Shown: positions 4,026 through 21,581 of the stretch, piece by piece
Position numbering within the stretch: position 1 is the first letter of the stretch
Layout of the letters: each line of letters begins with the position of its first letter
Source of the DNA: a virus
Reading direction: 5' to 3' (one strand)
Length of the DNA stretch: 22,133 bases
Virus record (IMG/VR): IMGVR_UViG_3300021963_003756
Span: 1-22,133 of that record
Notes under the pieces: model-generated
Seen by the model: only the letters and a program-made list of their open reading frames with translations
Database searches by the model: none
Told to the model about the DNA's origin: nothing
Made by a program: the position numbers and the translations under genes

Positions 4026-4054
4026 ATTGTAACACTACACGAATTACCGGTCAA
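4026..4054 (-). promoter_or_regulatory. Sigma70-type promoter for the VWA gene
   Basis: TTGACC at 4054-4049, a 17-bp spacer and TACAAT at 4031-4026. The spacer carries TAATTC two bases after the -35 box, as in three other promoters of this region. The TGA stop of the lipoprotein gene lies inside the -35 hexamer. Confidence 0.72.
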
Positions 4055-4275
4055 TGTCTTTGTCTAAATACTTCTTCTTGCCGGTCTACGCCACTTTGGC
4101 ACACTTTGTTATTTGTCACAATACGCAGGGTTTTACAATCTCTATCTGTGACATAACTCAATGTATGGTCTGTGGCACTTTTGCCTGTTACACCCCACAG
4201 TCCTGTGCTGGCAACTGTTATTGCAGTACATCCGCTGAGGGCAAATGTAGAAACTATAGCAAAAATTTTAATCAT
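4051..4275 (-). CDS. Small lipoprotein (74 aa)
   Basis: The protein starts MIKIFAIVSTFALSGC. This is a short basic start, a hydrophobic stretch and a lipobox (LSGC) with the lipidation Cys at 16, so it should be processed by signal peptidase II and anchored in a membrane. The mature part has DHTLSYVTDRDCKTLRI and VCQ, a 'DH...DC...VCQ' pattern I recall from small proteobacterial lipoproteins; it could therefore be host-derived. Possible roles are envelope modification or superinfection exclusion, neither shown. The ATG has no SD, and a hairpin lies directly upstream. The stop codon sits in the -35 box of the next promoter. Confidence 0.75.
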   Translation of the reverse strand: MIKIFAIVSTFALSGCTAITVASTGLWGVTGKSATDHTLSYVTDRDCKTLRIVTNNKVCQSGVDRQEEVFRQRH

Positions 4276-4280
4276 AAAAT

Positions 4281-4304
4281 TGGGGACTTATTGACATTGC
4301 CCCA
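4281..4304 (-). terminator. Weak hairpin between the MoxR and lipoprotein genes
   Basis: TGGGG and CCCCA can pair across a 14-nt loop and are followed on the minus strand by AATTTT. The stem is short and the U-run has only four bases, so it would act as a weak or partial terminator, or as a structure near the lipoprotein start codon. Confidence 0.3.
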
Positions 4305-4320
4305 GACCGTGACTAGCGGA

Positions 4321-5421
4321 TTACTTGCCTGACGCCGCGATAATGTACTTACCGAAACGTTGGTGGAACTCGTCAAAGCTCTTCATCTTGCCTGGTACCA
4401 TTGGCAAGTTGTAGGTTGTCAATGCAACACGGGCACCCATTACCACTAACTCTGTGGTAAAATTATCCATCATAAAGCGCAGGAAGTTATCTGCCTGGGC
4501 ATGCCACTCCGGAATCTTATCTTTGCCTAACTTCTTAAACTGCTCCTGAAGCTCGTAACACATAGAAATTGTCAAAGAGTACATTGCAGATATTTCTTTG
4601 ACTTTCAACTCTTTAACTTTACCCGACAGCACATCCTCGGGCTTGGGCATCTTGCCTGCTACCTTGCGGTGAGCCATGAACTTGACAGCAAGGCCTTCTC
4701 CCACAGTACCCGAAATAAGGTCTGTTAGTTCTGCGTCTGTGGCATCCTCGTCTTCCAAGAACTGGCTCACAAAGAACCAAGAGCGCGGAGTGGCAAATGC
4801 ACGTGACGCAGACTTGGGATCAAATTCCATCAAGTCTTGTTTGGCAAAGCCAATATAACCAACCACGTCTTTGTGGATTTTGTGTGCAATAGCCCACTGG
4901 AACCAGCTTTCGTAATCTGAGCGCACTTCCAAGTGAACAAAACGGTTTGCCAGTGGACTAGGCATACGATAGGTAACGCCTTTGTCACTTTCTCTGTTAC
5001 CTGCGGCAACAATAACTACGTTGTCTGGCAGTTTATATTTGCCAATACGTCGATTCAAAATAAGTTGATAACCTGCCGCTTGCACAGCCGGCGCCGCAGA
5101 GTTCATCTCGTCGAGAAACAATGTGATGATAGGATATTGACTGGCCAATTCCTCATCTGGCAAGTCGATTGGGGGAGCCCAATCCATAACTTCTTTGTTC
5201 TTATTAAAGAACGGGATGCCTCGAATGTCAGTGGGCTCCATCTGACCCAGGCGCAGGTCGATCATATGACCACCAAGCTCTTCTGTTAGTCCAGCAACAA
5301 GCTCGGACTTGCCGATGCCTGGAGGACCCCAGAGGAATACTGGGCGTTTGGATTTGAAACAACGAAGTACTCGACTACGGGCTTCGTTGGGGGTAACACT
5401 ACGGTTCTCAGTCACAGCCAT
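4321..5421 (-). CDS. MoxR-type AAA+ ATPase
   Basis: A 366-aa AAA+ ATPase of the MoxR group, which remodels protein complexes together with VWA partners. Visible motifs: Walker A GPPGIGKS (32-39), the DIRGIPFF segment typical of MoxR (65-72), Walker B LFLDEMN (101-107), sensor 1 AAGN (139-142), arginine finger LANRF (157-161) and a sensor 2-like ATPRSW (210-215). The C-terminal part (about 230-366) is a helical region whose last 60 residues (HAQAD...SFDEFH) are clearly related to a separate gene at 6780-7142. The SD AAAGGAG precedes the ATG at 5421. The partner VWA gene follows after the lipoprotein gene. The role in phage infection is not established. Confidence 0.93.
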   Translation of the reverse strand: MAVTENRSVTPNEARSRVLRCFKSKRPVFLWGPPGIGKSELVAGLTEELGGHMIDLRLGQMEPTDIRGIPFFNKNKEVMDWAPPIDLPDEELASQYPIITLFLDEMNSAAPAVQAAGYQLILNRRIGKYKLPDNVVIVAAGNRESDKGVTYRMPSPLANRFVHLEVRSDYESWFQWAIAHKIHKDVVGYIGFAKQDLMEFDPKSASRAFATPRSWFFVSQFLEDEDATDAELTDLISGTVGEGLAVKFMAHRKVAGKMPKPEDVLSGKVKELKVKEISAMYSLTISMCYELQEQFKKLGKDKIPEWHAQADNFLRFMMDNFTTELVVMGARVALTTYNLPMVPGKMKSFDEFHQRFGKYIIAASGK

Positions 5422-5463
5422 TTAAATGCTCCTTTAAAAAATGTCTTACTTAACACAAAAACA

Positions 5464-5493
5464 AGTATACAACAGACCGCCTTTATTGGTCTA
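5464..5493 (-). promoter_or_regulatory. Probable promoter for the MoxR gene, with inverted repeat
   Basis: TAGACC at 5493-5488, an 18-bp spacer and TATACT at 5469-5464. It is a weaker relative of the TTGACC-N2-TAATTC promoters (here TAGACC-AA-TAAAGG). AGACC and GGTCT form an inverted repeat across the -35 region (5474-5494), which could be an operator. Confidence 0.45.
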
Positions 5494-5508
5494 TTGTATT
5501 TTTACAAA

Positions 5509-5802
5509 TTAATCTCTTTTATCCATGTATTCAAACAAGACCCATTTTGCACGATTAAGCAATTGACGTTGGGCTTCAATGGTGGGGAAGTCGGGTTGCT
5601 CATAGGCCATCATTTCTTGTGCGTCACTCATCATGCTGGCCACAACCATTGCAGGACCCGAGTACTTAAAAGAAAAGCTCGACTCAACACTTTGACGCAA
5701 AGCATCTTCAGTGATACCATACATGCCAATTTCACGTTCACGTTGCATATTGTTGCGAACTGTGGTGCGGATTGATGCTAAGATTGCGGTTGATGCTGTC
5801 AT
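5509..5802 (-). CDS. Small unknown protein (97 aa)
   Basis: The product (MTASTAILASIRTTVRNNMQ...) looks helical, with a Met-rich middle (GPAMVVASMMSDAQEMMAY) and a C-terminal RQLLNRAKWVLFEYMDKRD. No family recognised. A frame with a TTG two codons upstream exists, but the ATG at 5802 is preferred: AAGGAA lies 8 nt before it, and the next gene upstream has the same leader and begins with the same ATGACAGC. It has its own promoter at 5834-5862. Its placement next to MoxR with a related promoter suggests co-expression, and perhaps a function in the same process. Confidence 0.72.
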   Translation of the reverse strand: MTASTAILASIRTTVRNNMQREREIGMYGITEDALRQSVESSFSFKYSGPAMVVASMMSDAQEMMAYEQPDFPTIEAQRQLLNRAKWVLFEYMDKRD

Positions 5803-5833
5803 TTTCAAGTTCCTTTTTAATTACTATACAAAT

Positions 5834-5862
5834 ATTATAACAGATTGGGAATTATTGGTCAA
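5834..5862 (-). promoter_or_regulatory. Strong sigma70-type promoter
   Basis: TTGACC (5862-5857), a 17-bp spacer beginning AATAATTC, and a perfect TATAAT (5839-5834). It drives the 97-aa gene. The TGA stop of the preceding gene lies inside the -35 box. The following leader is nearly identical to that of the next promoter copy upstream. Confidence 0.82.
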
Positions 5863-6212
5863 TCCAACCGTGAACCTGCGTAAACACGATCCAGACCCAA
5901 CTTTTCTTTCAGTACCTGGACATAGGCTTCTGCGCCGGCTTCCAAGATGCTGATGCTCTGTGTAGGGAAACCGCTGGGGTTCCACAGGCTCAATGCACCT
6001 GTGTAGTCTTTGCGGAAGCCTGCGGCCTGGAGGAACTTGCCAACCTTGCTGTTGGAGCGAACACCCCACACATTTACCCAAGCAAAGCCGCAGGCATCGT
6101 TTTCGCCATGCTTTTCAAAAAAGTCTCTGGCCGCCATACGAGCTTCAAATTGAGCTTCTTGACAAGCTAATTGAACTGCTTCTGCGGTTATCACGGTTGC
6201 GATTGCTGTCAT
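5859..6212 (-). CDS. Conserved-looking phage protein, unknown function (117 aa)
   Basis: Starts MTAIATVITAEAVQLACQEA with a long helix, then CGFAWVNVWGVRSN, GKFLQAAGFRKDYTGALSLW and NPSG, and ends VYAGSRLD. The blocks 'CGFAWV', 'GFRKDYTGALSLWNPSG' and a final 'GSRLD' match a small protein family I recall from large aquatic phages; no function is known to me. The ATG at 6212 follows AAGGAG with good spacing. It has its own promoter (6243-6271), and its stop codon is embedded in the next promoter. It is one of three consecutive single-gene units with related promoters. Confidence 0.78.
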   Translation of the reverse strand: MTAIATVITAEAVQLACQEAQFEARMAARDFFEKHGENDACGFAWVNVWGVRSNSKVGKFLQAAGFRKDYTGALSLWNPSGFPTQSISILEAGAEAYVQVLKEKLGLDRVYAGSRLD

Positions 6213-6242
6213 TTCTGACTCCTTTTTAATTACTATACAAGT

Positions 6243-6271
6243 ATTATAGCAAACATCGAATTATGGGTCAA
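6243..6271 (-). promoter_or_regulatory. Strong sigma70-type promoter with extended -10
   Basis: TTGACC (6271-6266), a 17-bp spacer starting CATAATTC, and TATAAT (6248-6243) preceded by TGC, an extended -10. It drives the 117-aa gene. The TGA stop of the gene before lies inside the -35 box. Confidence 0.85.
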
Positions 6272-6666
6272 CTAAAATTTGCTTGAATAAACTGTTTTCT
6301 AGCTTCTGCTGGAGTACGTGGCTTTTTACCCACAGTTTTTGTGGTCTTTGCTACAAAAGCAATGGCCTTTTCCTGTGGCTTTTTAACAACAACTGTCTTT
6401 TTTACGGGTTTTTTAAAGGGATTCTCATCTTTTATTAAGTTAGTAAGCACTAACTCTGCTTCTTTGACATTGACGTTGAAATCCTCAACTTTGATGAGCA
6501 CATACTTGGCGGCATCATTTTTGCTCATTGCACTACCCAGTGGGCGTAAAAATACGTTGGTATCTCCCAACTTTGCAAGTTGGTCAATGCGTTTTGTATC
6601 ATTGGCTGTACGGAATTTGAGTACGCCGTTTACACGGCTAAACCCTGCGTAAGTAACTGTGGACAT
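6268..6666 (-). CDS. Unknown protein with basic C-terminal half (132 aa)
   Basis: The N-terminal 75 residues form a mixed alpha/beta-looking domain (VTYAGFSRVNGVLKFRTANDTKRIDQL, KYVLIKVEDFNVNVKEAELVL). The rest is Lys/Pro/Thr-rich (KKPVKKTVVVKKPQEK, KTVGKKPRTPAEARKQF), consistent with a flexible basic tail that could bind nucleic acid. No known family recognised. An AAAGGGTTAACG leader with a moderate SD precedes the ATG at 6666, and the gene has its own promoter at 6697-6725 with three short repeats just upstream of it. Confidence 0.72.
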   Translation of the reverse strand: MSTVTYAGFSRVNGVLKFRTANDTKRIDQLAKLGDTNVFLRPLGSAMSKNDAAKYVLIKVEDFNVNVKEAELVLTNLIKDENPFKKPVKKTVVVKKPQEKAIAFVAKTTKTVGKKPRTPAEARKQFIQANFS

Positions 6667-6696
6667 CGTTAACCCTTTCTTAGTGTCAATACATGT

Positions 6697-6725
6697 ATTG
6701 TACGCAAGAATGAATTATGAGTCAA
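6697..6725 (-). promoter_or_regulatory. Sigma70-type promoter of the TAATTC group
   Basis: TTGACT (6725-6720), a 17-bp spacer beginning CATAATTC and TACAAT (6702-6697). It drives the 132-aa gene. Tandem short repeats adjoin its upstream side. Confidence 0.78.
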
Positions 6726-6779: not shown

Positions 6780-7142
6780 TTACAACACCGGAATATCCCT
6801 GGCGTTTGCATGTGTTACTAGAGAACCATAATTATGGTGGAATCTATCAAACGATGGAATCTCTCTGGGCACCAATGGAATATGATAGTGAGATAACCAA
6901 CACTTGGCCACAGCAACAACCATCACAGGGTCGGCAACGTTGTTCATAACTAGGGTCAACAATTCATCAGCTCTAGCGTGAAATTTCCTCTGGTTTCGTT
7001 TTTTAGAAAGAGCCAACAACTCTTGGCCATACTGATGTGCGAGGGCAACTGGGTTGGCAGTGAGTATGCCCCACATCAATTCCTTATCGTCGTCTAAAGA
7101 CATAGATACCTTCGCTTTTGTATGCGTTTTCTGCTCGGCCAT
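6780..7142 (-). CDS. Free-standing paralogue of the MoxR C-terminal domain (120 aa)
   Basis: Residues 55-109 align with residues 307-360 of the MoxR ATPase encoded at 4321-5421. The shared pattern is HA.AD..L...M.N....V followed by Y..P.VP....SFD.FH...G, with one single-residue gap and roughly one third identity by eye. There is no Walker motif, so this protein is only the accessory helical domain with a different N-terminus (MAEQKTHTKAKVSMSLDDDK). It may bind the same partner as the ATPase tail, as an adaptor or competitor. The ATG at 7142 has an AGGAG SD 6 nt upstream but lies 59 nt inside the methyltransferase gene. A second ATG at 7103 would reduce the overlap to 20 nt. Confidence 0.8.
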   Translation of the reverse strand: MAEQKTHTKAKVSMSLDDDKELMWGILTANPVALAHQYGQELLALSKKRNQRKFHARADELLTLVMNNVADPVMVVAVAKCWLSHYHIPLVPREIPSFDRFHHNYGSLVTHANARDIPVL

Positions 7143-8233: not shown

Positions 8234-8791
8234 TTAAATTACTAGATGTTTAAAGTAATTATAATGTTTTTCTAATGTCCATGTCAATGGATCAATGTTG
8301 GTACCGTCGTGAGTTTGGAATTCAGCCGCAAATACATTTGTATAACGTGTGAACGGTAACCACATATCGGGAGTCTTAGCGGCCCACCCTGCTTCTTTAA
8401 GAAGATGGTGTTTTGTACGACTCAACTTTACTGTAGGAGTATTTAATGCTTGTTCCACAGTAATAGCGTTGGCTAACAACAAATCACGAATACGACTTGC
8501 AGGGATTAAGTGTTCAAAGTCACATTCTTCGTCTGCCCCAACTTCGTGATAGTGTGCTTTCATGCCATCACGTTGTTGGATACAGTACTCGTGGTATCGT
8601 CGTAGATAATAATCTATGTCGTTACGAATTTCTCGTAACAGTTGTTGGTCATTTTGCACAGCATGATACTCATCAACTAGACGATCTATATTCTTAGTAC
8701 AATGCCGTGACACGGTTTGGTAAGTTTCGACAGTACGTTTAGTCTTACCATACACAGGAGCAACAAATTGTTCAAGAGATTCTTTTAACAT
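8234..8791 (-). CDS. Unknown protein with possible HNH-like motif (185 aa)
   Basis: The N-terminal 90 residues are helical and charged. The middle carries CDFEHLIP (90-97), followed by SRIRDLLLANAITVEQALN, PTVKLSRTKHHLL and a final W..FTRYTNVF segment. The EHLIP...LSRTKHH arrangement resembles the EH..P...H layout of HNH nucleases, but the central Asn and metal-binding cysteines are not clear, so I treat nuclease activity as a hypothesis. An AGAGG SD precedes the ATG at 8791, the gene sits between the ParB-like and methyltransferase genes with almost no spacing, and it probably works with them. Confidence 0.65.
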   Translation of the reverse strand: MLKESLEQFVAPVYGKTKRTVETYQTVSRHCTKNIDRLVDEYHAVQNDQQLLREIRNDIDYYLRRYHEYCIQQRDGMKAHYHEVGADEECDFEHLIPASRIRDLLLANAITVEQALNTPTVKLSRTKHHLLKEAGWAAKTPDMWLPFTRYTNVFAAEFQTHDGTNIDPLTWTLEKHYNYFKHLVI

Positions 8792-9943: not shown

Positions 9944-9972
9944 AGTATAACACTAAAGTCCTATAGTGTCAA
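9944..9972 (-). promoter_or_regulatory. Strong sigma70-type promoter of the ParB-like operon
   Basis: A consensus TTGACA (9972-9967), a 17-bp spacer and TATACT (9949-9944). It overlaps the last codons and stop of the endolysin gene. GTAATTC lies upstream of the -35 box rather than downstream as in the MoxR-region promoters. Confidence 0.82.
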
Positions 9973-10597: not shown

Positions 10598-10948
10598 CTA
10601 TTGATTTTGTTGCAGATTGTCTAAATATTGTACAAGATTCCCGCCATGTAACTGCAACATAACGGCATCTTGGTCGCTGATTACAAGGATAAACTTGTCG
10701 GAAAAGTAATATGGTTCAGTTAGCAATCGTTCCAACTGTAACATCTGCTTGGGCATGATCCTTGCCTGTATGTCTACTCTATGAAGTACCAACTTGGTAT
10801 GTTTCTTAATCCACGTTGATCCGGTATGTGTTAATCTTAGACTACGTTTGTTTATGGGATTCCACCACCAAGTATTTTCTACACCCGGAAACTCTGCACC
10901 AGGTGCAACTTGATCAATTAAATGTCTAGTCCATTTAACTTGGTTCAT
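10598..10948 (-). CDS. Small unknown protein (116 aa)
   Basis: I do not recognise the family. The protein begins MNQVKWTRHLIDQVAPGAEF and contains ENTWWWNPINKRSLRLTHTG, then STWIKKHTKL and a C-terminal FSDKFILVISDQDAVMLQLHG. The frame is open to 11017, but the ATG at 10948 is preferred: it overlaps the radical SAM gene by only 14 nt and the sequence before it lies inside that gene. The SD is weak, so coupling is likely. A hairpin terminator follows the stop. Co-transcription with the radical SAM gene could mean a shared role; nothing more can be said. Confidence 0.68.
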   Translation of the reverse strand: MNQVKWTRHLIDQVAPGAEFPGVENTWWWNPINKRSLRLTHTGSTWIKKHTKLVLHRVDIQARIMPKQMLQLERLLTEPYYFSDKFILVISDQDAVMLQLHGGNLVQYLDNLQQNQ

Positions 10949-12146
10949 TTGGGATGTAAGGCAACATCGCCTGATAGTATTCTGGGAATGTTTCAGCAAA
11001 AGATTGGTCCCTGACACGATCTAGTATATGCAATTCTTCCCAAAATCTTGGCCACCATATATCGCAGCCCGGTATTTGATGATTTAATAAAGAAATAAAT
11101 TTTTCACATTTTTTGTTATTTTTAAATTTCTCAATAAGTTGATGTTTAATCTCGGGGGGCAGGTGTCTAAAGTCATATTGGTCTGGTCCATATACAACAT
11201 TAGAGAAGACGGGAACACCATATTTTTCTAATCCATCAAGTATTGCATCCGCATACCAAATATTATAAATGCTAACAGTAAAACATATATTAACAGATAT
11301 GTTTTTATATTTGTTTGATAATTCAATATATTTTTCTATATTTTCTTGCAGAGCAACAACATCTACTTTGTGTCGAATATATTCGAGTTGATTGGTATCA
11401 TTTGAATCTATACTAATTGCAATTTGTACATGTTTAAATTTTGGCAAGATATCAATGTAAGATTGATTCCATATAACTCCATTAGTATGAAATTGTATTG
11501 CAGTATCTGCAACTTTATCATTGTTTGCAGCGTCAATCATTTTATCCCACATTGCCGGCGCCAGCATAGGTTCGCCGCCGTAGATATCTAGGAATATAAA
11601 GCCAGGTAACCACTGTTTAAATGTTTCCCAAATGTCGATATTTTGTTTACCTAATCCCAAGCGAATAGTTTCAAATTTTTTAGTATACTCTTTAAACGTT
11701 CCTGTAAATGATTTTAATTCTGTATCAAGTTTGTAGAAATCTTGATACAATGTAGTACTAGTACTAGGTTGGCACATCCTGCACCCTAAATTACAAACAT
11801 TAGTGGGCTTTAAAATTAATATCTGCGGTTGGGTGTCAGATTGATCTACATCTTTTAATTTTTTATTAAAAATTTGTCTAAAAGATTCCACCCCAGCATC
11901 CTCGTCGTTCCAACAAGATTGACAACTAGGAATACGTTTGCCATGATCTAGGGCAGCACGTATTAATTTTCTAGTAGGACTACGCCACATGCGTTCAAGA
12001 CCCACTTCATGAAGATATAATTTATTTTTCTTACCATCCTCGAAGCTTTGTGTATTTTTGTTACATACACAGACATCACCTTCGTTTTGCACAGCCAATG
12101 AAACGTGTGCTAATTTACAATATGTGGTAGAGTCTTGTGCAAACAT
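10935..12146 (-). CDS. Radical SAM protein with N-terminal twitch/SPASM-like Cys domain
   Basis: A 403-aa radical SAM enzyme. The [4Fe-4S] cluster motif is VCNLGCRMC (C118, C122, C125), followed by DIYGGEPML (GGEP, SAM binding) and FHTNG. Ahead of the core, residues 1-95 hold further cysteines (C10, C26, C28, C75, C78) in the order C...G.VC.C...C..CW..E..G..S.R, which looks like a twitch/SPASM auxiliary-cluster domain placed at the N-terminus. I recall this architecture from aquatic phages. SPASM-type enzymes usually modify peptides or proteins, but the substrate is unknown here. The ATG overlaps the upstream stop as TAATG and lacks an SD. The region around this gene looks more AT-rich than its neighbours. 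Confidence 0.85.
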   Translation of the reverse strand: MFAQDSTTYCKLAHVSLAVQNEGDVCVCNKNTQSFEDGKKNKLYLHEVGLERMWRSPTRKLIRAALDHGKRIPSCQSCWNDEDAGVESFRQIFNKKLKDVDQSDTQPQILILKPTNVCNLGCRMCQPSTSTTLYQDFYKLDTELKSFTGTFKEYTKKFETIRLGLGKQNIDIWETFKQWLPGFIFLDIYGGEPMLAPAMWDKMIDAANNDKVADTAIQFHTNGVIWNQSYIDILPKFKHVQIAISIDSNDTNQLEYIRHKVDVVALQENIEKYIELSNKYKNISVNICFTVSIYNIWYADAILDGLEKYGVPVFSNVVYGPDQYDFRHLPPEIKHQLIEKFKNNKKCEKFISLLNHQIPGCDIWWPRFWEELHILDRVRDQSFAETFPEYYQAMLPYIPNEPS

Positions 12147-12436
12147 TATGCACGATAGATAGTATCACCCTGTTTGAGTAATACCACAGTGAACTTGTCT
12201 GTTTTAAATAGTGTGTTTAATTTCTTGGCCAAATTAATTGCATGGCCGGGATTAGAAAAGCTAACCTTCTTGTACTTGGGTCCGGGGTAGCTAACTAAGA
12301 TATTGTGTGTTTTTAAATTAATAGGCATATTGTCGTAGAAGACCGCCCAGATACCTTCAGAGCTTAACACTTGCTCGCTTTTGTATGTGTTCTTGTTAAC
12401 GTGATCTAGCAACACATTTGGCTTAGGTCGACTCAT
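12146..12436 (-). CDS. Small conserved-looking phage protein (96 aa)
   Basis: Contains PNVLLDHVNKNTYKSEQVLS, then GIWAVFYDNMPINLKTHN, ILVSYPGPKYKKVSFSNPGH and a final FTVVLLKQGDTIYRA. From memory, the 'YPGPKYKKVSFSNPGHA...LA..LN' pattern recurs in T4-like phages from water, without a known function. An AAGGA SD precedes the ATG at 12436, and a T4-late-like GATAAATA element lies 24-31 nt upstream. Its stop overlaps the radical SAM start, so it is co-expressed with it. It is too well ordered to be a typical RiPP precursor. Confidence 0.75.
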   Translation of the reverse strand: MSRPKPNVLLDHVNKNTYKSEQVLSSEGIWAVFYDNMPINLKTHNILVSYPGPKYKKVSFSNPGHAINLAKKLNTLFKTDKFTVVLLKQGDTIYRA

Positions 12437-16888: not shown

Positions 16889-17140
16889 TTAGTATCCTTT
16901 TAATTTCCACACAAGGTGTTCGTCTAAGTCATGCCAGCGAAACTCAACGATGTCTTCACCAGGCCCTGTTAGTATTGCCATTCCTTTATACCCACGCTTC
17001 AACCAAATAAGATTATTAGTTAAGTCGCAACGTCTAGGCCATAGCGTAAACTTTACTTGCCATCCAACACATCGGCGATAGAACCAATCGTCACGTTTAA
17101 ACGCCATGGCCATTTTACCTTTGTAACCTATACCCATCAT
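16889..17140 (-). CDS. Small basic protein, unknown function (83 aa)
   Basis: Rich in Trp, Arg and Lys: DDWFYRRCVGWQVKFTLWPRR, LIWLKRGYKGMAILTGPGED, IVEFRWHDLDEHLVWKLKGY. It is probably a compact beta-rich domain. No family recognised. Two Met codons in a row open the gene, and the first overlaps the QueE stop as ATGA, so it is coupled to QueE. Confidence 0.7.
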   Translation of the reverse strand: MMGIGYKGKMAMAFKRDDWFYRRCVGWQVKFTLWPRRCDLTNNLIWLKRGYKGMAILTGPGEDIVEFRWHDLDEHLVWKLKGY

Positions 17141-18012
17141 GCAAGACTTGCGTACAAATGCATTTGTAGATTTAGTTTAAAACCATTGTCAATACAGAAC
17201 TGTCCTGTGTGTTCGTGATTTGCTTGATTGGCTTTTAAGTCCAACAAGCCTGGCTCCCAAAAGCTAATAACTTCATCTACAGTACTACGCTCTGCCATGG
17301 TAATAGTGCCTTTTTCTGCACGTAACAGTTTAATCTTTTGCGGAAAACTGTTGTACACATTCATCGGACTACAATAAACTTCCTTGTCAGGATTATTACG
17401 TTTCCATTCAAATGCCCACTCGGGTACAGTATAGTAAGGGCTATCAGGATCTGAGCTCATAACAAACTTTAAACAGTCTGCACGTTTTAGAATAGTCGCA
17501 CTGGGTGCATAGTATTTAACCGCATGTCCTTCTTTTTCCATGCACTTGGGACTGCATACAAGGGTAACACCTTCGGGCACATCAGTAACCGGAATACCGT
17601 TGCTTTCAACTTGTACAGCCTTAAAATGTGCAAGTTGTTGTGCCATAAATTCACTGATGTTATCTTGTAACAAGGGCTCACCTCCGGTCATCACAAGTAC
17701 AACACCTGGGTAATTGTTTAAGCCATTGGCTGCCCACGGGGGTGTTTCTTTACCTTGTTTGTTCCAATGATCATTGATAGCCGCATGCATCTTAGATTCA
17801 ATCTCATCAAAGGTTAGCCAATCGCCATCATCAAAGAATGTGTCGCAAAAACTACAATCTAAATTACACTTAGCAAGACGAATAAACAATGCAGGTTGTC
17901 CTGCATAAGGACCTTCGCCTTGTAGGGTAAAGAACATGCTGGTTACAAACAAGCTGTCTGCGGGAGCATCTTTAAAATACTTCTTACCAATAATTTCATT
18001 TGTTCCAAACAT
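17137..18012 (-). CDS. queE: 7-carboxy-7-deazaguanine synthase (radical SAM)
   Basis: QueE converts 6-carboxy-tetrahydropterin to 7-carboxy-7-deazaguanine (CDG), the ring-contraction step of preQ0 synthesis. The 291-aa product has FFTLQGEGPYAGQPALFIRL (about 27-46), the cluster motif AKCNLDCSFCDT (C49, C53, C56) and VLVMTGGEPLLQ, all typical of QueE. The frame stays open to 18087, but the ATG at 18012 is preferred: AAGGA lies just upstream, it follows the MazG stop by one base, and QueE proteins begin close to this point. Together with FolE and QueD upstream it forms the GTP-to-CDG route, feeding either tRNA queuosine or 7-deazaguanine in phage DNA. Confidence 0.92.
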   Translation of the reverse strand: MFGTNEIIGKKYFKDAPADSLFVTSMFFTLQGEGPYAGQPALFIRLAKCNLDCSFCDTFFDDGDWLTFDEIESKMHAAINDHWNKQGKETPPWAANGLNNYPGVVLVMTGGEPLLQDNISEFMAQQLAHFKAVQVESNGIPVTDVPEGVTLVCSPKCMEKEGHAVKYYAPSATILKRADCLKFVMSSDPDSPYYTVPEWAFEWKRNNPDKEVYCSPMNVYNSFPQKIKLLRAEKGTITMAERSTVDEVISFWEPGLLDLKANQANHEHTGQFCIDNGFKLNLQMHLYASLA

Positions 18013-18013
18013 G

Positions 18014-18289
18014 TCAATCCTTAAAAATATCTGACCAAATTTTAAGTTTGGCAATTTTGTTATCTGCGGCAATGCTAATTTGTTCACTGCCTACTAGGTT
18101 AAATTTGATGCACAAGTCAATCATTGCTTGTAAGTCGCCTAGTTCTTCTGCTAGATGTTCTCTATTTGTCTTGGGCGTTCCTGGTTTAACGTTGTCTAGG
18201 CCAAATCGATAACACTTAGAGATAGCTTGTGTCACTTCTGCACATTCTTCTTGGGTAATGAGCAATATTTCATTTTCTTTTGAGTTCAT
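18014..18289 (-). CDS. mazG: MazG-like nucleotide pyrophosphohydrolase
   Basis: A 91-aa all-helical MazG-type protein that should hydrolyse NTPs or dNTPs, or possibly ppGpp, to monophosphates. The metal-binding pairs are visible: QEECAEVTQA (E14/E15, E18) and HLAEELGDLQAMID (E48/E49, D52), i.e. the EExxE...ExxD motif. The size is that of the minimal phage MazG. Here it sits between the transporter and QueE genes; supplying nucleotides for DNA synthesis or cleaning non-canonical nucleotides would both fit. The SD is weak. Confidence 0.87.
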   Translation of the reverse strand: MNSKENEILLITQEECAEVTQAISKCYRFGLDNVKPGTPKTNREHLAEELGDLQAMIDLCIKFNLVGSEQISIAADNKIAKLKIWSDIFKD

Positions 18290-18292
18290 AAT

Positions 18293-18463
18293 TTACCAAT
18301 GTCGAATAACACCTGCTATGATAAAGCAGTTAGTTATGATATATGTTAACACAATTACAGTACGAATGCAAGCAATACGGTCAGCTTCTGTATCCGTATT
18401 GCCTGCCTTCTCTCCTAGGGCCTTGGCCCATATTCTCCAAATGTTAATTGCTACTTTTAACAA
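18293..18463 (-). CDS. Small membrane protein, 56 aa, TTG start
   Basis: Reads MLKVAINIWRIWAKALGEKA, then GNTDTEADRIACIRT, a hydrophobic VIVLTYIITNCFIIAGVI and a final RHW. One C-terminal membrane segment and a charged amphipathic N-terminus are clear. I recall a family of similar phage proteins with 'WAKALGEK...EAD..A.IRT...(LTY..TNCFI.AG..RHW)', which supports it as a real gene. No ATG is available; the TTG at 18463 has GGAAGAAG-like purines upstream and overlaps the transporter gene by 20 nt. It fills what would be a 154-bp gap. Function unknown; it could assist the adjacent transporter. Confidence 0.72.
   Translation of the reverse strand: MLKVAINIWRIWAKALGEKAGNTDTEADRIACIRTVIVLTYIITNCFIIAGVIRHW
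18372..18402. repeat. Inverted repeat inside the small membrane-protein gene
   Basis: GCAATACGG (18372-18380) and CCGTATTGC (18394-18402) are perfect 9-bp complements with a 13-bp loop. It could form an mRNA hairpin that tunes expression between the transporter and MazG genes. It lies in coding sequence, so it may also be incidental. Confidence 0.4.
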
Positions 18464-19085
18464 TGTTCTCTTCTTCTTCCGTTACCAATTTCTTTTGCAG
18501 ATGATTCAACAGTAACCCGTAAGCAGGAAGAATAACTACCAGGCTCACAATGATTTTACTAATCGAATTGTTGGTTGCAACAATGTGCCAGTTAGCAGCC
18601 ATGAACTCATTGGCGCCGCCAGCAAATGCTGTAAAGAAGAACACATAGGTATCAAAGAATGTGCTAACAATTGAACTTAGCGCAGGTGCAATCCACCAAG
18701 TGGCATACTTCTCACGAATGTATTGGAATACATAAACATCCAACAAGTTGCTGATAAAGTAGGCACATCCACTGCCAAGGCCAATACGGAAGGCAACTGA
18801 ATCAGGAGCTCCGCCTAGCTTAACCACTGCCATACTTACTAGAATAGCAGGAATGAATGCCAGGGCAATCACAGCACGACCAGTTTGTTTGCCTAACAGT
18901 CGCACAGTCAAGTCGGTCAACACAACCACTAGTGGAAATGTAAACGCGGCTGCTGCTAATGGTGCACCAAACACTGAAAACTTGTACTGCACAATGTAGT
19001 TGCTAATGGCAATAATAATGACGTGAGCCAGCATTAACTTGTATGCTAATGCTCGGTCTACACCGTTTAAAATTTTGTCTAACAT
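18444..19085 (-). CDS. yhhQ: Queuosine precursor transporter (YhhQ / VUT family)
   Basis: A 213-aa integral membrane protein with about six hydrophobic segments. Family signatures: ISNYIVQYKF near the start, AAAFTFPLVVVLTDLTVRLLG (about 45-65), AFRIGLGSGCAYFISNLLDVYVF (about 98-120), WWIAPALSSIVSTFFDTYVF and FFTAFAG. These match the YhhQ/QueT-like group that imports preQ0 or preQ1. Its position between QueD and QueE supports that role: the phage could both make and import 7-deazaguanine precursors. AGGAG precedes the ATG at 19085. Confidence 0.92.
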   Translation of the reverse strand: MLDKILNGVDRALAYKLMLAHVIIIAISNYIVQYKFSVFGAPLAAAAFTFPLVVVLTDLTVRLLGKQTGRAVIALAFIPAILVSMAVVKLGGAPDSVAFRIGLGSGCAYFISNLLDVYVFQYIREKYATWWIAPALSSIVSTFFDTYVFFFTAFAGGANEFMAANWHIVATNNSISKIIVSLVVILPAYGLLLNHLQKKLVTEEEENIVKSSN

Positions 19086-20501: not shown

Positions 20502-20677
20502 ACCATATCTTTAAACATTAGTCGTCGACCATCTTCGCCCAATTCTTTGTCAAAGATACTTTTAACTGTGACTAGCATTGCACTTGCCAACATTAGTAGA
20601 TCTTCTCTGTTATCACACATCATAATTTGTCGATCAATTGGCTCCATTAATTCAGCCATACGTTGTTGTATGTTCAT
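20498..20677 (-). CDS. Small unknown protein (59 aa)
   Basis: Reads MNIQQRMAELMEPIDRQIMM, CDNREDLLMLASAMLVTVKS, then IFDKELGEDGRRLMFKDMV. It is all-helical and Met-rich. It begins in an ATGA overlap with the FolE stop and ends in an ATGA overlap with the next gene, exactly filling a 170-bp interval; this is good evidence that it is translated. The 'M..CDNREDLLMLA..ML' pattern looks like small phage proteins I have seen, with no known function. Confidence 0.68.
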   Translation of the reverse strand: MNIQQRMAELMEPIDRQIMMCDNREDLLMLASAMLVTVKSIFDKELGEDGRRLMFKDMV

Positions 20678-21510
20678 CTTGGGGCAAACTCCTGTTGTAG
20701 TTTAATGTTGTCAAAGAATTCTTTCTTTGTATTGCCATCATCTTTAAACGCACCCTTGAGAACGGTAGTCTGCGTCAATGAACTATGTGCCATAATACCA
20801 CGATTTTCACAGCATCCGTGTACAGCTTGAATATATACACCTAGGTCTGTTGCTCCAGTTGCTTTGGCAATTTCCCTAGCAATGTCATTTGCAAGTTCTT
20901 CCTGTAGTGTGCCACGACGAGCACACCACTGAGCAATACGAGTGTACTTGCTAAGGCCAATGAGCTTTTGAGCGGCAATAATCCCGATATAAGCAACGCC
21001 ACTGACAGGTTGGTGGTGATGACTGCACATACTGCGAAGCTCACTACGTACCACAAGCATTCCTTCGTAGCGGTCCTCGGAATCGTTTGGAAATGCTGTT
21101 GCGTCTGGTGCTGGTTCATATCTTCCTGCCATTACTTCGTTGAAATACATTTTAGCCAATCGCTTGGCTGTGCCTTTTGAGTTAGGATCGTTTTCACGAT
21201 CAATGAGTAAACGATCTAATACTGTTTCAAATGCTTCTGCAGCTTCATCAATTAATTGATCTTTAAATTCTTCTGTGACATACTCACTGATGTTATCTCC
21301 GGCCCAAAAACGTTTGCCTTCACGTTTCATTTTAAAGCGAAGGTGATCGCCTAAGTACGCTTCTTCATAGCCCTTGTCGCTCATGTCGTCTCCGGCTTTA
21401 ACGTACACTTCTTTCTTTAACGGTACATATTTGTCTGATATAACGTCTGCTACAAATTTAGTGTTAGTGTCTGAATGAAATACTGGATCTGGTGTAAATT
21501 CTTTTGTCAA
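20674..21510 (-). CDS. folE: GTP cyclohydrolase I
   Basis: FolE opens GTP to dihydroneopterin triphosphate, the first step of folate and 7-deazaguanine synthesis. The 278-aa protein has the zinc-binding SMCSHHHQP (C162, H165), YIGIIAAQKLIGLSKYTRIA (174-193), RRGTLQEELANDIA (198-211) and AVHGCCENRG (C233 as the third ligand); all active-site blocks are intact. About 75 residues of extra N-terminus precede the usual FolE start. The only upstream start codon is TTG at 21510 with GGAG 8 nt before it; an ATG at residue 43 is an alternative. The gene heads the operon running to QueE and has a consensus promoter. Confidence 0.93.
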   Translation of the reverse strand: MTKEFTPDPVFHSDTNTKFVADVISDKYVPLKKEVYVKAGDDMSDKGYEEAYLGDHLRFKMKREGKRFWAGDNISEYVTEEFKDQLIDEAAEAFETVLDRLLIDRENDPNSKGTAKRLAKMYFNEVMAGRYEPAPDATAFPNDSEDRYEGMLVVRSELRSMCSHHHQPVSGVAYIGIIAAQKLIGLSKYTRIAQWCARRGTLQEELANDIAREIAKATGATDLGVYIQAVHGCCENRGIMAHSSLTQTTVLKGAFKDDGNTKKEFFDNIKLQQEFAPR

Positions 21511-21552: not shown

Positions 21553-21581
21553 ATTGTATAGTATTTAGACTTTGATGTCAA
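21553..21581 (-). promoter_or_regulatory. Sigma70-type promoter of the folE-queE operon
   Basis: A consensus TTGACA (21581-21576), a 17-bp spacer and TACAAT (21558-21553), 43 bp before the TTG start of folE. The -35 box lies in the last codons of the aminotransferase-like gene. Confidence 0.78.

Follow-up and report, generated by a model that had tools for sequence, protein, structure and literature searches.

The early promoters of phage T4, of the UP/-35/TGn/-10 type (PMC2988021), have near-consensus sigma70 elements with an extended -10 motif (TGn), occur many times per genome, and lie mostly in one orientation. The host polymerase uses them right after infection, with no need for phage factors. 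In T4 middle promoters, which are used with AsiA, the -35 element is replaced by a MotA box (PMC2988021). Cluster A mycobacteriophages carry many oriented operator or stoperator sites, the consensus of which drifts with repressor specificity (PMC6550527). Here, we describe a promoter class, called class I, in the virus record IMGVR_UViG_3300021963_003756, the whole 22 kb of which is the window of this analysis, and in its relatives. Class I is a real, phage-specific promoter class in which a conserved A/T-rich block lies inside the spacer of a sigma70-type promoter. For uncultured jumbo phages, little is known about the ordering of gene expression through the host polymerase.

The window contains four exact copies of the pattern TTGACY-N2-TAATTC-N9-TAYAAT, all on the minus strand (Table 1). 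As an earlier note on this DNA had described, the -35 and -10 hexamers of each are 17 bp apart and the TAATTC block starts two bases past the -35 hexamer. When up to three mismatches were allowed, five matches were found in the window, compared to 0.10 expected from shuffles, and five matches were reached in 0 of 100 shuffles; the fifth is a weak TTGACA site at positions 21553 to 21581. All four true sites lie approximately 26 to 31 nt 5' of a start codon with a Shine-Dalgarno-like sequence in between (ATACTTGTATAGTAATTAAAAAGGAG is an example of such a leader), and three of the four have the extended -10 motif TGn. Their layout is that of sigma70-type promoters, with -35 and -10 hexamers 16 to 18 bp apart, 5' of a gene. 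The degenerate relative that had been reported 5' of the MoxR gene is present, with a spacer of 18 bp rather than 17 bp, and -35 variants of its kind (CAGACC or TAGACC) are also found at the MoxR or vWA genes of relatives. A subclass with CAGACC or CAGACA at -35, which has lost TT and retained GAC, has a similar A-rich stretch 5' and the same block type; it was seen near the MoxR and vWA genes of L126, L156, L162, L184, L201, and others. Two further near-consensus promoters in the window, at positions 8258 to 8287 (TTGACA/TATAAT, 12/12) and 9944 to 9972, lack the block.

Because the window itself is only a 22-kb viral record, the genome-wide scan for the 29-bp pattern that the earlier note had suggested was run in relatives. 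With up to two mismatches, 20 records had between 0 and 25 matches each, confined in every case to one strand, and no match to the reversed control pattern. Four large records each yielded 20 to 22 sites under selection with TNGNCC-N17-TATAAT, with no more than one control match per record; nearly all of these sites had TTGACC and an A/T-rich block, and a further scan gave a similar result. Approximately 20 to 25 such promoters are present in most relatives of 300 to 350 kb. In the viral collection, the pattern occurred in at least 120 stretches, compared to 25 for the reversed hexamer in the same frame, and a stricter pattern also occurred in at least 120 viral stretches. Two close strict versions had no match in a collection of 84,980 prokaryote genomes. 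A BLAST search with the promoter consensus gave no convincing match in cultured phages, and the class was not seen in the 25 kb examined of PA5oct, one of the cultured relatives closest to the window by MoxR (51% identity). Sinorhizobium phage Phosso and Agrobacterium phage Atu_ph07 were considered and dropped; in Phosso, a candidate TTCCTG spacer word had only two exact sites. No class I site was found in the stretch of G002 that carries the major capsid gene, which is suggestive only.

The relatives reached via MoxR are as long as 355 kb. Of 10 records searched, 7 had a T4-type major capsid protein; among fetched records, five had a T4-type DNA polymerase and four a clamp loader. A gp55-like late sigma factor was present in five records. 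The promoters thus belong to a group of uncultured T4-like jumbo phages. The RNA polymerase beta subunit had no match in ten relatives, making the host polymerase the likely enzyme and leaving the idea of a phage-encoded RNA polymerase as the reader of the block unsupported. A search for single-subunit RNA polymerase was uninformative, since its control gave no signal.

The block was recovered when the spacer was not used for selection. Sites chosen by TTGAC plus TATAAT and a ribosome site yielded the consensus GG-TTGACC-NN-WAAWTC-CC-N2-TTTGC-TATAATA. The claim that the block is real and lies outside the sigma70 consensus is supported. The same selection yielded a second group with TTGACA, mostly without the block. 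When only the -10 element and ribosome site were used, the enriched positional words were GGTTG, TTGAC, GACCA, AATAA/ATATT, TTCCC, CCCAA, and ATTTG. The block tends to occur with TTGACC (odds ratio, 7.4; P = 7e-9) and also with GG, TGn, and a C-rich pair. The 17-bp spacer is strongly favored in G002, with 54 sense sites versus 1 antisense. In the block, located at approximately -27 to -22, an AA core precedes a triplet that varies with the lineage, and CC often comes next. Class I sites also share a short, A-rich leader with AAGGAG at its end. Orthologous genes of G002 and G006 retain a class I promoter in 9 of 12 cases, versus 5 of 240 (odds ratio, 141; P = 4e-11). The earlier proposal of a single regulon is supported, and the regulon extends far beyond the MoxR/vWA region, given the number of promoters in the large relatives. 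This class, readable from sequence alone, defines a regulon in more than 100 contigs and sets it apart from other promoter types.

Spacer conservation distinguishes class I from T4 early promoters. We compared 58 class I sites with 17 early-like sites from approximately 107 kb of T4 in four stretches and found approximately 7.9 bits of information at the ten positions from -29 to -20 in class I versus approximately 1.8 bits in T4. The two types are alike in their near-consensus elements with TGn, number per genome, and mostly single orientation, and class I phages carry relatives of the T4-type gp23, gp43, gp44, and gp55. T4 early promoters, however, have GTTTAC at -35, a TGTGG-like sequence before the -10 element, and little spacer conservation, whereas class I (GGTTGACC) has GG-TTGACC, TTTGC, and the conserved block. 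Like T4 middle promoters, class I promoters have an extra, variation-tolerant, phage-specific block upstream of a sigma70 -10 element, and the -35 element of some relatives loses TT (CAGACC). The MotA box is centered at -30 and replaces the -35 element, whereas the class I block is different and lies 3' of a -35 element that is intact in most sites. T4 late promoters (TATAAATA) are read by gp55; class I sites have TATAAT with a -35 element, though a gp55-like factor is present. Late promoters of the TATAAATA type were too rare to serve as a time marker.

The letters of the block differ from lineage to lineage. Among MoxR relatives, the block is TAATTC in L131, TAAATC in L138 and L150, AAATGG in L163 and L127, AAAGGC in L146, TAATGC in L156, and AAATAC in L193, among other forms. 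A single phage has the same block at promoters of different genes, while other lineages differ. Across 50 phages, agreement between MoxR and vWA promoters exceeded that of shuffled pairings mainly at the block, where z reached 6.2. After near-duplicate sites had been removed, and with equal weights for all records, within-record block identity was 0.67, compared to 0.44 with shuffled labels (z = 11.1); the same test gave z values of 4.8 for the 3' spacer, 1.5 for upstream sequence, and 1.7 for the leader. Agreement per position peaked at approximately -28 to -23. The case for TAATTC itself as the signal is weakened: in its general form, the block is A/T-rich, and its exact letters are lineage specific. 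Variation between lineages, together with uniformity among the promoters of a phage, gives the block the look of a regulator's binding site, and we infer from the within-phage agreement that a phage transcription factor, as previously suggested, may read it. Operators and stoperators likewise have a consensus that differs between related lineages and is common within a phage, although those of cluster A are sites for repressors of temperate phages and lie mostly outside promoters, whereas the class I block is within them. Our preferred reading, to which we assign a probability of roughly 45%, is that class I comprises phage-wide, sigma70-type promoters that are probably early and driven by the host polymerase, with the block bound by a phage-encoded factor.

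Within-phage agreement could instead reflect recent copying rather than selection on a binding site, if promoter-leader cassettes were copied or converted within a genome. Leaders such as ACTTGTATAGTAATTAAAAAGGAG do recur many times within one genome, and T4-type phages have promoter early stem-loops (PeSLs), repeated units between genes, each an early promoter joined to a stem-loop terminator, that mediate gene shuffling according to work cited in PMC4503421. Agreement, however, sits on the block and not on the 3' spacer, upstream sequence, or leader, and it remains (z = 7.0 and z = 5.2 at two positions of the block) when only pairs with dissimilar 3' spacers are compared. Moreover, the class is kept at orthologous genes across phages while the block changes. 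The stem fraction was higher in the window, G001, and G012, but these have four sites each; the larger records showed no consistent excess of upstream stems, and the PeSL idea was rejected. We regard copying as an improbable explanation for the agreement.

Several observations weigh against a phage-encoded factor. The z values overstate significance because they treat related phages as independent, and the contrast between adjacent positions is the safer part of the agreement evidence. The largest phages have a loose block (TAATTC, TAAATC, ATATTC, AAATTG, or TAATTA), agreement over all pairs, which is dominated by the three largest genomes, is uneven over the block, unlike that in the record-weighted comparison, and local promoter duplication may add to the agreement within a phage. 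The MotA and AsiA families were not found, though very divergent forms could escape detection, and no helix-turn-helix was seen when ten small conserved proteins were scanned with Pfam.

A loose block in the largest phages would be equally expected of an A/T-rich spacer acting in cis. In this main rival explanation, alternating A/T-rich and C-rich spacer segments shape the DNA to improve binding or escape of the host sigma70 polymerase, and no protein binds the block. The promoters fit known sigma70 elements, often with TGn; most lineages share the AA core in a block that is A/T-rich; and a review proposes that the extra consensus regions of T4 early promoters may optimize contact with the host polymerase (PMC2988021). 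Against it, T4 early-like sites are nearly unconserved at these positions, the block letters depend on lineage and include the G-rich AAATGG and AAAGGC yet are common within a phage, and the -35 element retains a nonconsensus C (TTGACC). The specificity of sigma70 is deeply conserved, and the change of block letters by lineage therefore counts against a purely cis-acting role, which we consider rather unlikely. A DNA-binding protein of the host could also read the block, with lineage differences mirroring different hosts. Such a protein would account for lineage-specific letters without a phage regulator; the absence of the two strict patterns from the prokaryote collection argues against it, although host sites outside the phage -35/-10 context would escape that search. 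We find this very unlikely.

A different explanation arises from the ends of the genes. At three of the four window promoters, the TGA of the -35 hexamer (positions 4049 to 4054, 5857 to 5862, and 6266 to 6271) is the stop codon of the preceding open frame; the genes for the 117- and 132-aa proteins both end in the TGA of the next -35 box. The block might be kept as a supply of stop codons, with this TGA and the TAA of TAATTC ending the preceding gene. In six fetched phage records, 37% of class I sites have a -35 TGA that closes an open frame 60 or more codons long, compared to 5 to 6% of all TTGAC in three of those six records, a comparison set not matched for gene ends. Offset +8, where the block has its TAA, ranks among the next most frequent stop positions. 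However, TAA is missing from many block variants and goes unused at most sites, and a supply of stop codons does not explain the TC. The overlap of stop codon and -35 element is tight packing, and stop-codon supply as the reason for the block is hardly credible. A phage factor and a cis-acting spacer are both more likely than mobile cassettes, a host factor, or a supply of stop codons.

Returning to the phage-encoded factor, GG-TTGACC, the 17-bp spacer, the extended -10 element (TGC-TATAATA), and the A-rich leader would, from their match to consensus, give strong initiation by the host polymerase. The factor would bind the block at approximately -27 to -22 and switch the whole set on or off together, acting as either an activator or a repressor, and its preference and the block would drift jointly from lineage to lineage. 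Phage-regulated promoters of the host type are already known; the novel part would be a co-diversifying, spacer-binding regulator, which is plausible. More tentatively, this group of lytic-type T4-like jumbo phages may encode its own factor that binds inside the spacer of otherwise complete sigma70 promoters, its specificity having diversified by lineage with dozens of sites per genome; this would constitute a phage regulon code able to separate coinfecting relatives. If the block is a binding site, the lineage letters are a natural experiment in which a regulator and dozens of sites have changed together, and the block is a concrete bait for finding the missing regulator.

Candidates for this regulator were sought among the phage proteins. 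Sigma region 4 was not found, save for one weak match in G012, and limited scans found no cognate DNA-binding repressor. The 132-aa protein shows a loose tendency to occur where the blocks are of TC type (P = 0.0017, without correction for relatedness), and its model predicts a strand-strand-helix-strand fold with a basic tail, which gave a weak, nonsignificant match to the RNA polymerase epsilon subunit YkzG (E = 0.37; probability, 0.63). This protein was rejected as the reader of the block, as many phages with TC-type blocks lack it and the resemblance to YkzG is weak. Most relatives have a very highly conserved 96-aa protein (positions 12146 to 12436); across the 20 that were aligned, it is 73 to 91% identical to the copy in the window. 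It was also set aside, as it had no PDB match and a low-confidence model and its ortholog in G002 had no Pfam or PHROG match.

Table 1. Positions of class I promoters, their spacer blocks, and the genes behind them in the window
Feature	Positions	Strand	Basis or remark
Metallopeptidase plus vWA-like protein (DUF2201_N/DUF2201), 420 aa	2737..3999	-	Pfam 4.8e-41 and 4.5e-15
Class I promoter 1, vWA/metallopeptidase gene: TTGACC-GG-TAATTC-GTGTAGTGT-TACAAT	4026..4054	-	Exact match; retained in near-identical relative G001
Spacer block TAATTC, promoter 1	4041..4046	-	Sequence
MoxR-type AAA ATPase, 366 aa	4321..5421	-	PHROG 1297 8.8e-99; Pfam AAA 5.6e-07
Degenerate class I promoter 5' of MoxR: TAGACC-AA-TAAAGG, 18-bp spacer, TATACT	5464..5493	-	
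Small protein, no assigned function, behind promoter 2	5509..5802	-	
Class I promoter 2: TTGACC-AA-TAATTC-CCAATCTGT-TATAAT	5834..5862	-	Exact match; block is TAAATC in relative G001
Spacer block TAATTC, promoter 2	5849..5854	-	Sequence
117-aa protein, no assigned function, behind promoter 3	5859..6212	-	PHROG 22149 1.4e-12
Class I promoter 3: TTGACC-CA-TAATTC-GATGTTTGC-TATAAT	6243..6271	-	Exact match
Spacer block TAATTC, promoter 3	6258..6263	-	Sequence
132-aa protein, no assigned function, behind promoter 4	6268..6666	-	
Class I promoter 4: TTGACT-CA-TAATTC-ATTCTTGCG-TACAAT	6697..6725	-	Exact match
Spacer block TAATTC, promoter 4	6712..6717	-	Sequence

The pairing of a MoxR ATPase with a vWA protein has been described in group 2.2 jumbo phages, where its proposed role is in virion assembly (PMC7824862). 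A class I promoter also precedes the gene for a 91-aa protein of G002 that resembles the small protein behind promoter 2, and the genes for its orthologs in G006 and G011. A 120-aa protein (positions 6780 to 7142) matches the C-terminal end of MoxR, or a place close to it, in most MoxR relatives, as a stand-alone copy of that domain would. Elsewhere in the window, four genes (positions 10935 to 12146, 17137 to 18087, 18444 to 19085, and 20674 to 21510) encode radical SAM proteins, a Vut_1 (YhhQ-like) transporter, and GTP cyclohydrolase I. As a set, they hint at a 7-deazaguanine (queuosine-type) pathway that may serve to modify DNA.

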